In this document: piece after piece, positions 10,754-16,004 of the stretch | Numbering within the stretch: the stretch's first letter is position 1 | Layout: each line of letters begins with the position of its first letter | Assembly (NCBI RefSeq): GCF_024347075.1 | Contig: NZ_AP024900.1 | Coordinates: 2,542,001-2,606,000, forward strand | DNA from: Vibrio rarus | GTDB lineage: Bacteria; Pseudomonadota; Gammaproteobacteria; Enterobacterales; Vibrionaceae | Length of the DNA stretch: 64,000 bases | Direction: 5' to 3' | Position numbers and translations under genes: made by a program | Notes under the pieces: generated by a model | Told to the model about the DNA's origin: nothing | The model's input: the letters and a program-made list of their open reading frames with translations, nothing else | The model's database searches: none

Positions 10754-12420
10754 CGGTTTGGAATAATTAGTACCTGCCCAACGGCAAGGGAATCTGAACG
10801 AAGTTTATTAGCACTGCGGATGCTGCTCACAGACACACCATATTTAGCCGCAATTTTACCTAAAAACTCACCGCGCTGAACTTTGTGCTTACGAATCGGC
10901 TTATCTTTAACGGCCACCGTAATTTTCAGTTTTTGCCCCACATGTACTGTGTTCGATTTAAGATTATTTTCACGCTTAATGGACGCGACAGGCACTTTAT
11001 ACTGACTGGCAATTTTGCCTAAGTACTCTCCGCTTCGTACTGTATGTGTTATCACTCTTGTTTCAACAGAGTTCAAGGTACTTGAAGCAATAGCTCTCCC
11101 AGGTATAGCGAGTTTCTGCCCCACTTTTAAGGTGTCACTTTTTAAGTTGTTGGCCGCCTTAAGGGCATTTACAGACACTTTGTGGTTTTGCGCTATTTTG
11201 GAGAGAAAATCACCACGCTTAACAATATAGAATCCTGAATGATGAGGCACTGACTTATCAAAGCTTGTGCCTTCTGGCGGGTTACTGTGTAAATACGTCA
11301 CAATGGCTCGTGAAAGAGCTGAGGCTAATTTATCCTGATATGAACGCTGGAACAGCAACTTCTCTTCTTTAGGGTTAGAAATAAAACCCGTTTCCACTAA
11401 CACTGAGGGAATTTGCGGAGAACGCAATACCGCTAAGCTCGCTTCACTTGGTTTGCTCTTATGTAAGTGCGCCACTTTTTTGAGCTCTTTTAGTATATCA
11501 ATAGCCAACTTCTCGCCTTCGCGCTTTGAATGAGTGAACTGCAAATCAAGCAAGGTTTGATTCACGTTCTTATCATTACGAATGACCGTAGAGGTGCCAC
11601 CCAGTTTTCTGGATTGACGCTCTTGGTTTTCAACCCAACGCGAGATCTCAGTGTTTCGACGGCGGTCATTTAAGAAGAATACCGATGCGCCTCTTGGGCG
11701 TGGTGAGGTAAATGCATCAGCATGGATAGATACAAATAAATGCGCATTTTTCTTATCTGCAATGGCAACGCGCTGGTCTAAAGGCACGAAATAATCGCCA
11801 CTTCGTGTGAGCTTAGTTGTGATACCCGGTATCGCATTGAGTTGTGCCGATAATTTCTTAGCAATATTTAACGTGACAAATTTTTCATATTTACGACTTG
11901 GACCAATAGAGCCTGGATCTTTACCACCATGACCGGGATCAATCACAATCAGCACATCTTGTCGGTGAGGGACTGTCATTTTGCTGGCAACCACAGGTTT
12001 ATTCGCGACAGCCTTTGTTTGCACCCCAAAAGGAATATCCACCACCAATCGATGGCCATTGCCTTTATCTGGCCCTAGTTTAAAGACATTTGGGGAAGCC
12101 TTGCCTTTTAATTCAAAAACTAAGCGAACCGTATTCTTATGCGGTGGCGAACTTTTACGGACTTTAGATAAAATCGGACTTTTCGTAACTAACTTAGGTA
12201 GCTTGGCACTGTTTGAGCTGCTTTTAATATCTACCACTACGCGCTCTGGGCTCGCTAAGGTAAAGAAACTGTATTCAGCAGCGTGAGTAAGGTCAATCAC
12301 AGCCCGAGTATCTTTATTGGTGGTGGAGATACGAATGTTTTTTATTTCATTTGCCTGCACAGTGGCAAACAAGGTTGAAATAAATAGCAAAGTAAGCGCC
12401 CATACTGAGTTCTTAATCAA
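10750..12420 (-). CDS. amiB: N-acetylmuramoyl-L-alanine amidase AmiB with three LysM domains
   Basis: AmiB cleaves the amide bond between MurNAc and the stem peptide and helps split the septal cell wall after division. The 556-residue protein has a signal peptide (cleavage likely after VQA, residue 23) and an AMIN targeting domain (about 28-130). A zinc amidase_3 catalytic domain follows, with [12 protein letters not shown] and SIHADAF motifs and a conserved late glutamate in VLVETGF. Three C-terminal LysM repeats (about 398-442, 458-502, 509-555) each carry a G-D/E-x-L-x-K-I-A core. E. coli AmiB lacks LysM; extra LysM copies are common in vibrios. Its family activator EnvC is encoded at 47839-49002. 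Confidence 0.95.
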
Positions 12421-12881
12421 TTTAGCTCCAGATTTTTTAGCAGTGTTAATCCATTGTCACTGTTTGCAGTCACAGTGGCGATACGACCATTGCCTTGATA
12501 GCGAATATCCAACTCAAGGTCTGCGGCAGGTAATAAACCAACGCCTCTCTGTGGCCACTCGACGAGACAAATAGCATCAGGCGTAAAATAATCGCGGATC
12601 CCCATGAATTCTAGCTCTTCTGGATCAGCAAGGCGATAAAGATCAAAGTGGTACACTTGCCACTGTTGTAAATCATAAGGCTCAACTAAAGTGTAAGTCG
12701 GGCTTTTTACATTCCCCTTATGCCCCATAGATTGGATAAAACCTCGACTAAAGGTTGTTTTCCCCGCCCCCAGATCACCATGCAAATAAATCGTTGTTTG
12801 CTCAGAGCATAAGGCAGACAGGCTTGCCCCTAACTTTACTGTGTCGTGCTCATCCTTAAGAGAGAAATGCTTCTGGGTCAT
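12417..12881 (-). CDS. tsaE: tRNA threonylcarbamoyladenosine biosynthesis ATPase TsaE
   Basis: TsaE is the ATPase needed with TsaB and TsaD to make t6A37 in tRNAs reading ANN codons. From the ATG at 12881 it is 154 residues, the normal length; an upstream in-frame ATG at 12953 would add 24 residues not typical of the family. The Walker A motif GDLGAGKT (35-42) and the following FSRGFIQ helix are clear, as is the [10 protein letters not shown] region. It overlaps amiB by 4 bp (ATGA) and heads the amiB-mutL-miaA-hfq operon. In E. coli nnr sits between queG and tsaE; no such gene is present here. Confidence 0.95.
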
Positions 12882-13079
12882 AAACGTTAATCTTCGATTG
12901 GTTTTAATAAATAATGGCCTAATTATCTCTACTGAGCGCGTTTTGTCGAGCAAAGCTACTTCTTTGGTAGACTCTAAACAAAAACTTTTGTTCCTAAACA
13001 GAGAGAAATAGTCACTATATTACCTGTTCGCTGTTTTATTCGCTAAAATAATGGCAACTTTCTCCAATTTATCAAAACA

Positions 13080-14192
13080 ATGGATCTTCAACGTTTAGCA
13101 GAACAAATCAAACTTTGGGGTAACGAACTTGGTTTTCAAAAAGTAGGCATCACGGATATCGACCTATCCGCCCATGAAGCTGGATTAAATAAATGGCTCG
13201 CACAGGGCTATAACGGCAGTATGGAATGGATGGAACGTAATGGAGATAAGCGAGTACACCCAGAATTATTGCATCCTGGCACGGTTAGGATCATCAGTGT
13301 CCGTCTAGATTATCTTCCTCCTGAGGCGCATTTTGCCAGTAATTTATCGGATTCGACTCAAGCGTACATTAGCCGTTATGCTTTAGGACGTGATTACCAT
13401 AAATTGATGAGAAATAAGCTAAAGCACTTAGCGACTAAAATAGAACAAGAGGTCGGCCAGTTAAATTACCGACCTTTCGTGGATTCAGCACCAGTATTAG
13501 AAAGACCGTTAGCAGAGAAAGCAGGGCTAGGCTGGACAGGTAAACACTCCTTGTTACTTGATGAGCATGCCGGTTCTTGGTTTTTTCTCGGTGAATTGAT
13601 GGTAGACCTGCCATTACCCGTCGATAAAGTAATAGAAAACCAATGTGGTAAATGTCGATCTTGCATCACCAGTTGCCCTACAGGAGCAATTGTTGAAGAG
13701 GGCGTAGTTGATGCTCGCAAGTGTATTTCATACTTAACTATTGAATATGACGGCATCATTGACAAGGCTCTATGTGATGTCATGGGCAATCGCATCTATG
13801 GTTGCGATGACTGCCAACTTGTATGCCCATTTAACCGACAAGCAAAGATCACTAAGCAAGCTGATTTTCATCGCAAAGAGACCATCAAAAACAGCGATTT
13901 ATTGCATCTATTTTTATGGGATGAAAGCACTTTTTTAAAGAATTTCGAAGGCTCAGCCATTCGGCGTATCGGCTATATTCAATGGTTGAGAAATTTATCT
14001 ATTGCTATCGGTAATAGTCATTATTCAGAAGATGTGATTAACACATTAAAAACTAAACTGGGTCTAAATGATGTACTCGACCATCATATTAACTACGCCA
14101 TAGAACGACTCACATCCCAAGCGTCATCCGTTTCAACCAAGCAACAAAGATTGATTCGTATCGTACAAAAAGGATTACCCAGAGACGCGTAA
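13080..14192 (+). CDS. queG: Epoxyqueuosine reductase QueG
   Basis: QueG performs the last step of queuosine synthesis, reducing epoxyqueuosine in tRNA to queuosine with a cobalamin cofactor and two [4Fe-4S] clusters. The 370-residue protein has the DUF1730 cobalamin domain with FVDSAP around catalytic Asp135. A ferredoxin-like double cluster region follows, with cysteines 189, 192, 195, 199 and 242, 245, 249 (CGKCRSCITSCPTGAI and GCDDCQLVCPFN). A HEAT-like C-terminus closes the protein. It is divergent from tsaE, and the non-coding DnaA-box region follows it. Confidence 0.95.
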   Translation: MDLQRLAEQIKLWGNELGFQKVGITDIDLSAHEAGLNKWLAQGYNGSMEWMERNGDKRVHPELLHPGTVRIISVRLDYLPPEAHFASNLSDSTQAYISRYALGRDYHKLMRNKLKHLATKIEQEVGQLNYRPFVDSAPVLERPLAEKAGLGWTGKHSLLLDEHAGSWFFLGELMVDLPLPVDKVIENQCGKCRSCITSCPTGAIVEEGVVDARKCISYLTIEYDGIIDKALCDVMGNRIYGCDDCQLVCPFNRQAKITKQADFHRKETIKNSDLLHLFLWDESTFLKNFEGSAIRRIGYIQWLRNLSIAIGNSHYSEDVINTLKTKLGLNDVLDHHINYAIERLTSQASSVSTKQQRLIRIVQKGLPRDA

Positions 14193-14281
14193 CCCTAGAC
14201 GCAAAAACCAACCTTACTCCGCCCTGCTAATCCCCAACTTTCACTAGAATATAATTCGTAGGCTACATAAAAAACCGCCTT

Positions 14282-14290
14282 TTATGCACA
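14282..14290 (+). promoter_or_regulatory. DnaA box, exact consensus
   Basis: TTATGCACA matches TTATNCACA exactly. It lies 90 bp after the queG stop, on the far side of the IHF site from the other exact box. Confidence 0.6.
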
Positions 14291-14482
14291 TTATTTCATT
14301 TGAAACTAGCGAAATGTATTGGGGCGTAGGGCAATGTGGAAAAAGAAGCTGAAGAGAAGCCCATTTAAGCACGCACTAAAGTTAAACACAGAAGATAAAT
14401 ATGATAAAGATCAAATAATAAGGTAACCAAGATCGAATAATCACATTGCAACGATCAATGGTTTTACTTGTTATCCCTTTTA

Positions 14483-14495
14483 TATCAATTAGTTA
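14483..14495 (+). promoter_or_regulatory. IHF-binding site, exact consensus
   Basis: TATCAATTAGTTA fits WATCAANNNNTTR at every position. It lies between the two exact DnaA boxes, about 95 bp before the main box cluster, so IHF bending could bring the box groups together. Confidence 0.55.
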
Positions 14496-14589
14496 TAGTG
14501 ATGGTAGAGTGTATTATTGTGCTGCAATATGAAATAGATCTTGACAGAGGATCTTGTAAATTCAATATTTTTTATTTTTATCAACCAAG

Positions 14590-14629
14590 TTATCCACAGT
14601 TTTGCTTTTGTGGGTAACTCTGTGCATTA
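14590..14629. promoter_or_regulatory. Cluster of three DnaA boxes
   Basis: TTATCCACA (14590-14598, exact, in the context AGTTATCCACAG) is followed by reverse-strand TTACCCACA (14609-14617) and TAATGCACA (14621-14629), each one mismatch from consensus. The first two face each other with a 10-bp gap. A fourth near match, TTAAACACA, is at 14647-14655. Confidence 0.6.
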
Positions 14630-14760
14630 ATTATTAACTTCATGTGTTAAACACAGGAAAAACTAAAGATTAATGATAATTAGAGCTAAAAATGGTCAAT
14701 AGGGATAAGTAGGACTTAAATAACCTTAGGAAGACGCATGAGGAGTTAAACAATAGAAAT

Positions 14761-14837
<77 letters not shown>

Positions 14838-14895
14838 TCCGTATTGTGTCACCGTTAAGTACGATGAAGACTTTTTATCTCTCAAAGAAAGAGAT

Positions 14896-14971
14896 TGGAG
14901 CGACACACGAGGTTCGAACTCGTGACCTCAACCTTGGCAAGGTTGCGCTCTACCAACTGAGCTAGTGTCGC
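14896..14971 (-). tRNA. tRNA-Gly (GCC), copy 1
   Basis: A 76-base tRNA with a 7-bp acceptor stem GCGACAC / GTGTCGC, anticodon loop around TTGCCAA and encoded CCA. It has the same anticodon as glyV, glyX and glyY, which occupy this place beside queG in E. coli. Confidence 0.97.
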
Positions 14972-15011
14972 ATTCCGCTGACAACCCGATATTTTCAAGT
15001 TATCTAGAATT

Positions 15012-15836: not shown

Positions 15837-15891
15837 TCCGTATTGTTTCACCATTTAAAAGCATGGTTAAGCTTGATATCTCAAAAGAGAT

Positions 15892-15982
15892 TGGAGCGAC
15901 ACACGAGGTTCGCTTTCCCTTGAACATAAGCGTGACCTCAACCTTGGCAAGGTTACACTCTACCAACTGAGCTAGTAGTTAC
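15892..15982 (-). pseudogene. Damaged tRNA-Gly (GCC) with altered T-arm and acceptor
   Basis: The D-arm, the anticodon arm with GCC and the 3' end GTGTCGCTCCA are kept. The T-arm is replaced by a longer sequence, giving a gene of about 91 bases; the insert can form its own stem (CGCTT / AAGCG around a 12-base loop). The 5' acceptor strand reads GTAACTAC instead of GCGACAC, so the acceptor stem cannot pair. It should not act as a normal tRNA. It sits second in the array, between an intact Gly gene and the first initiator gene. Confidence 0.85.
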
Positions 15983-16004
15983 ATTCAATTTTCTCAAAAG
16001 AGAT

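Follow-up and report, generated by a model that had tools for sequence, protein, structure and literature searches.

In Escherichia coli, the minimal datA locus consists of the high-affinity DnaA boxes 2 and 3, the low-affinity box 7 and one IHF site; the essential boxes all point in one direction, the interval lengths are said to be optimised, and bending by IHF is thought to join boxes 2 and 3 (PMC5742627). Four residues of DnaA, R281, R285, L290 and R334, are needed for datA-dependent ATP hydrolysis (PMC5742627). Clusters of DnaA boxes in Bacillus subtilis and Streptomyces coelicolor have been described as analogous to datA and as repressing untimely initiation (PMC5742627). DARS sequences have been reported in Vibrio cholerae (PMC6090056, PMC8682772). 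A description of datA on chromosome 1 of vibrios was not found in the literature searched, although an earlier mention in the primary datA papers is possible.

The window analysed here, a stretch of 64 kb from chromosome 1 of Vibrio rarus (contig C1, 2.85 Mb), holds a non-coding intergenic spacer of 568 bp (14193-14760) between convergent queG and an array of tRNA genes, in which five Met(CAT) alternate with five Gly(GCC) genes. The first-pass annotation had placed the spacer between queG and tRNA-Gly(GCC); the former flank is correct, whereas the nearest tRNA gene is tRNA-Met(CAT), with Gly(GCC) following. Among the named genomes scanned, Vibrio breoganii encodes the closest QueG match, on its chromosome 1 (81% identical). 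In the region 12417-13080, an ORF read as tsaE directly precedes queG in divergent orientation, and nnr, which lies between queG and tsaE in E. coli, is absent from that place in the window. A degenerate, interrupted tRNA-Gly-like copy is seen at ~15890-15990, flanked by the last Met and Gly tRNA genes to be called; ARAGORN makes no call there. The seven DnaA boxes claimed for the spacer, two of them exact and five with one mismatch, were all refound by a scan for TTATNCACA with at most one mismatch, and the exact IHF consensus WATCAANNNNTTR is likewise present (Table 1). Dinucleotide shuffles of the spacer lead one to expect 1.10 boxes instead of seven, and 0.05 exact boxes instead of two. 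The excess is local, because the whole window is not enriched (62 boxes with up to one mismatch vs 74.4 expected). Exact matches to the IHF consensus number seven in the window vs 5.0 expected, and a single such match alone is weak evidence.

Table 1. Features of the queG-tRNA spacer and its flanks; positions are those of the window, and the equation with datA boxes is our own assignment.
Feature	Position	Strand	Identity	Remarks
queG	13080..14192	+		Convergent flank; E. coli queG lies under DNA match
Exact DnaA box TTATGCACA	14282..14290	+		Lineage-specific, outside conserved core
DnaA box A TTTTCCACA	14335..14343	-	1.00 (38 Vibrio spacers)	One mismatch; placed as datA box 2 counterpart by position and direction
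DnaA box B TTAAACACA	14382..14390	+	0.94	Presumably a low-affinity site (one mismatch); left member of inner pair; without a counterpart seen in E. coli
Conserved GATC 1	14409..14412			B+27; at this place in 58/98 Vibrionaceae loci
Conserved GATC 2	14431..14434			B+49; 58/98 Vibrionaceae loci
IHF consensus TATCAATTAGTTA	14483..14495	+	0.83 (mean, specified positions)	Midway from B to C
AGATCT with conserved GATC 3 (14537-14540)	14536..14541		0.99	GATC in 57/98 loci, AGATCT in 28 of those
DnaA box C TTATCCACA	14590..14598	+	1.00	Exact; right box of inner pair
DnaA box D TTACCCACA	14609..14617	-	0.99	One mismatch; TTATCCACA in most relatives; placed as datA box 3 counterpart
DnaA box E TAATGCACA	14621..14629	-	0.77	One mismatch; 12 bp from D; box in some species only
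One-mismatch DnaA box TTAAACACA	14647..14655	+	50% (mean, columns)	Outside conserved core
tRNA-Met(CAT)	14761..14837	-		Convergent flank, nearest gene of tRNA array

Across the Vibrionaceae, the conserved core of the spacer consists of boxes A, B, C and D and the IHF motif. In an alignment of 38 Vibrio spacers these reach 95.3% identity vs 58.4% for the rest of 14335-14629, a value that none of 294 circular shifts matches; A-D were selected from the boxes of the first-pass annotation after the alignment had been seen, the GATC sites, picked with the same hindsight, are not counted among these elements, and the full set of seven boxes with the IHF motif has a mean identity of 75.3% vs 46.0% for the remaining spacer. 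The comparison of boxes and IHF site with spacer, on which the earlier proposal of a datA-like locus had been staked, thus came out in its favour. Of the two boxes singled out as exact, C is conserved, whereas the one at 14282 is covered in full by a gap in 32 of the remaining 37 Vibrio spacers. The boxes at 14282 and 14647, both poorly conserved in the 38-spacer alignment, were therefore dropped as members of the core.

One four-box element is shared by all 50 Vibrionaceae loci with the best QueG matches (48 distinct, window counted; 30 including the window's genome plus 20 named), and its typical layout, start to start, is A(-)-48-B(+)-101-IHF-107-C(+)-19-D(-). Together with 16 further loci, chosen because their genomes lack an exact box pair with a 10-bp gap, the arrangement A(-), B(+), C(+), D(-) is present with near-fixed spacing in 66 of 66 loci (63 distinct), as judged by a model, built after inspection of the boxes in the spacers, that sets ranges for the spacing and tolerates one mismatch in each box. 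Among the 63 distinct loci, A and B are 48 bp apart in 52 and 47 in 11, and C and D 19 bp apart in 46 and 18 in 17. Within the B-C interval, the position of the best IHF match is B+101 in 34 of the 63 loci and falls anywhere from B+99 to B+104 in 57, tied positions having been resolved towards B+101; the match is exact in 14, has one mismatch in 36 and two in 13, so that 49 loci deviate from the consensus by one or two bases. The C-D pair, written as TTATCCACA-N(8-11)-TGTGGRTAA, occurs in 234 of 246 Vibrionaceae genomes, nearly all with one locus (G236 has two), its position beside queG being confirmed for the individually read loci only; the backward pattern, used as a control, matches in 5 genomes, and the pattern with a fixed gap of 10 in 198 of 246. 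The pattern as written is missing from 12 genomes, three of which (G003, G047 and G233) were examined and have the element with one mismatch, and in G195, which has the C-D pair by pattern, the four-box element was not located. Elsewhere, the four-box arrangement was found neither in the rest of the window (14000-15000 masked) nor in control loci and loci of other groups that together make up 479 kb. In two genomes (2.1 and 2.6 Mb) without a QueG match (G002 with L133 and L220; G021 with L134 and L221), the four boxes are retained 0.3 and 2.1 kb past an ORF read as orn, with no tRNA in the 12-13 kb around the element. In G170 (L146, L218), ~0.9 kb of extra DNA separates queG from the element. 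GATC sites 1 and 2 are absent at their places in nine named Photobacterium and Enterovibrio loci; the recurring GATC sites may link the locus to Dam methylation and SeqA. The AGATCT around the third site is one that we take to be possibly an ATP-DnaA 6-mer, and three AGATCT motifs lie at ~3480-3540 of L132, beside mnmG and presumably at the chromosome-1 origin. An apparent strand bias of exact DnaA boxes was rejected, as minus-strand boxes such as one in L132 are missing among the matches listed.

The geometry of the element can be compared directly with that of E. coli. When an arm is measured from the centre of box A or D to the centre of the IHF motif, the A and D arms are typically 151 and 124 bp long in Vibrionaceae (150 and 124 in the window) vs 94 and 67 bp in enterobacteria (95 and 67 in K-12); both Vibrionaceae arms are thus ~57 bp longer than those of E. 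coli, whereas the difference between the two arms is ~27 bp in both groups. The Vibrionaceae set comprises 108 loci, of which 98 are distinct and have four boxes, seven are repeats and three lack the four boxes (L146, L147, L219); it is not a presence test, as 36 of the 40 loci added later had been picked around the C-D pair, and its counts are per locus, related species not being independent. A single best IHF match is found in 79 of the 98 loci; 71 of them have arms that differ by 26-28 bp, three by 18 and one by 29, and four give scattered values. Among the enterobacterial-type loci, 25 of 32 have a single best IHF match and 20 of these 25 give a difference of 27-28; one of the five that do not, L090, has an exact IHF consensus elsewhere, and a site giving 26-28 is among the candidates in every one of the seven loci with ties except L109. 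The half-lengths of the inner pair behave in a similar way: the B-C distance ranges from 203 to 214 bp (195 in three loci), and the IHF motif stays midway. In 63 of the 79 loci the B-IHF and IHF-C lengths differ by 6, and 72 show a difference of 5-7; five additional loci give 6 or 7, and all 19 tied loci include a midway site. The pairs seen are (99,105), (100,106), (101,107), (103,109) and (104,110). Enterobacteria, for their part, show the length pairs (91,68), (92,69) and (93,70), also (93,69) and (94,70). The correlation of left and right half-lengths is 0.37 over the 73 loci called at B+95 to B+115, and 0.98 without the outlier L196 (n=72). These paired changes are not an artefact of calling, because a misplaced IHF site would shift the two lengths in opposite directions. 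Moreover, the real IHF motif falls at one offset in 80% of cases (61/76), whereas 200 scrambled motifs reach at most 61% (median 13%), and the opposite-strand motif occurs at the midpoint in 0 of 38. Differences in loop length hence fall almost equally on both arms, which suggests that the register across the IHF bend is under selection.

Position and host factors are also those of a datA-type locus. The distance from the locus to mnmG, which adjoins oriC in K-12, amounts to 9.95% of chromosome 1 here, 10.07% in K-12 and 7.1-11.9% over 23 genomes, the host's own among them, with contigs taken as whole chromosomes and G049 and G061, where mnmG is on another contig, left out; since it partly follows from the common gene order, this distance is not independent evidence. 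The DnaA of the host is identical to that of E. coli at 393 of 467 residues, and at 90 of 94 in domain IV, and it keeps R281, R285, L290 and R334. Protein families IhfA and IhfB score above cut-off in the host genome.

The boxes might merely bind and store DnaA, with the IHF motif being incidental. Seven boxes within 568 bp would suit such passive titration, as would extra boxes that vary by lineage, for example in the Photobacterium frigidiphilum spacer L060, which has 13 with at most one mismatch. However, titration requires a number of boxes and not a geometry, while orientation and spacing are near-fixed here and the IHF motif holds the B-C midpoint although the B-C distance varies, which makes this explanation unlikely. 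A third DARS-type element, reactivating ADP-DnaA, is a still more improbable reading. The order C(+)-D(-)-E(-) is that of the E. coli DARS cores, with the + - - order of DARS1 and DARS2, D and E are 12 bp apart like DARS II and III, and DARS2 uses IHF (PMC5742627). However, the three-box core of DARS has gaps of 5 and 3 bp, as opposed to 10 (or 9) and 3 in the element (the C-D gap is 10 bp in the window and 9 in 17 of the 63 distinct loci), the neighbouring genes differ, box E is weak in most species, and the IHF motif lies on the datA-like side of box D. Elsewhere, the genome does contain cores spaced as in E. coli (gaps of 5 and 3 bp): one at C1:869174, beside an ORF read as uvrB, has no mismatch to the pattern, and one at C1:519919, between ORFs read as mutH and rppH, has two. 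A third DARS-core-like match, also with two mismatches, lies on the second contig (C2:235231-235265, L158). Remote from the loci treated here, two exact DnaA boxes 126 bp apart are among the matches listed (G000:C1:139049-139183). Finally, it is highly improbable that the spacer holds a transcription element serving queG or the tRNA operon, or else an RNA or a small gene, in which DnaA-box-like sequence occurs by chance: C and D do form an inverted repeat and E. coli datA is crossed by tRNA read-through transcription (PMC10950094), but queG and the tRNA genes both point towards the spacer, the only Rfam matches at E up to 1 in 14000-15000 are tRNAs, promoter-like matches number 1 vs 2.2 in shuffles, the C-D repeat lacks a subsequent T-run on both strands (read by eye, as the 10-base loop is beyond a terminator scan that allowed loops of 3-8), the letters of the boxes and not pairing alone are conserved, and the element persists in the two reduced genomes that have neither a QueG match nor a tRNA in the 12-13 kb around it.

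It is therefore a datA-type function that the locus most plausibly serves. The first-pass annotation had suggested as much, and gene order, an IHF motif between same-direction boxes, the distance to oriC and the DnaA residues all fit. The observations concern motifs, orientation, near-fixed spacing, gene order, conservation and distance to oriC; binding by IHF and DnaA, looping, ATP hydrolysis and cell-cycle timing of the element are what we infer by analogy. The spacer is likely to be the Vibrionaceae ortholog of datA, in which IHF would fold the arms, DnaA would meet across the fold, hydrolysis of DnaA-ATP would be promoted and re-initiation damped. In this mechanism, IHF would bend the DNA at its motif and lay the two arms side by side, so that DnaA on the outer box A could meet DnaA on D, and DnaA on the inner box B that on C. 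The resulting DnaA assembly would lead to hydrolysis of DnaA-bound ATP, as in DDAH of E. coli, and, as the locus would be duplicated soon after initiation, re-initiation at the chromosome-1 origin would be damped; plain titration of DnaA by these sites would then be a by-product. A broader proposal, which we put forward tentatively and regard as somewhat less than an even bet, is that datA in general might be a two-armed clamp selected for register, i.e., ~27 bp between the outer boxes, and not for arm length. The Vibrionaceae element might then be a double clamp, with outer A/D and a symmetric inner pair B/C of opposite direction, holding two DnaA assemblies on one IHF hairpin.

Outside the Vibrionaceae, a box pair of E. 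coli type was seen in enterobacteria and in three further families of the order. In a set of 38 non-Vibrionaceae loci (L076 and L086 excluded; L086 has 23 bases after queG), seven have a same-direction exact box pair 160-164 bp apart, all of them enterobacteria without a tRNA called within 3 kb, and in the other 31 exact boxes are missing up to 600 bp from queG. In a second set, the same-direction pair is present in 4 of 36 loci (family codes f4, f10 and, twice, f17), and the remaining 32 lack an exact box over 700 bp from queG onwards. Three loci (L118, L128, L181) have queG beside tRNA-Gly without the box pair. This distribution would fit a single origin of the datA-type element in an ancestor of Vibrionaceae and enterobacteria.

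Compared with E. coli datA, the element thus occupies the same slot between queG and Gly-tRNA genes, and the order orn, tRNAs, spacer, queG in the window is that of K-12, where the tRNAs are three Gly genes. In both, a single IHF motif lies between boxes of the same direction, A(-) and D(-) here as boxes 2 and 3 in E. coli, a likeness of sequence motifs: in K-12, TTATTCACA(-) and TTATCCACA(-) flank TATCAATAGGTTA(+), and the strand of the IHF motif relative to queG is the same. The box numbers placed on the datA sequence are our assignment, from reviews and the sequence itself. The context of box D, TGTGGGTAACTCTGT in the window, resembles that of box 3, TGTGGATAACTCTGT in K-12, with TGTGG[A/G]TAACTCTGT in common, and box E follows D at 12 bp as TTGTAAACA does box 3. 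The likeness to minimal datA covers boxes 2 and 3 and the IHF site. In contrast, the intervals from box 2 over the IBS to box 3 differ, only the ~27-bp difference between them being kept, and a plain copy of E. coli datA was accordingly rejected; with interval lengths unlike those of datA, the element is classed as a variant and not as the same element. The inner boxes B(+) and C(+), which lie at almost the same distance from the IHF motif, have no counterpart in E. coli datA and run opposite to A and D (A, D and E being minus), whereas the essential datA boxes share one direction (PMC5742627). Fixed GATC sites likewise set the Vibrio element apart from E. coli datA. A locus on V. cholerae chromosome 2 that binds the initiator RctB outside an origin has been likened to datA in print, but it acts on chromosome 2 through unrelated sites (PMC3937223). 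The queG-tRNA element is thus a probable datA ortholog of new architecture. If this is true, datA-type control of DnaA would reach beyond E. coli into a family with two chromosomes, and a natural datA variant with different arm lengths would be at hand, whose conserved register and paired length changes, set against the E. coli arrangement, would make the switching of DnaA-ATP hydrolysis by an IHF bend experimentally addressable.
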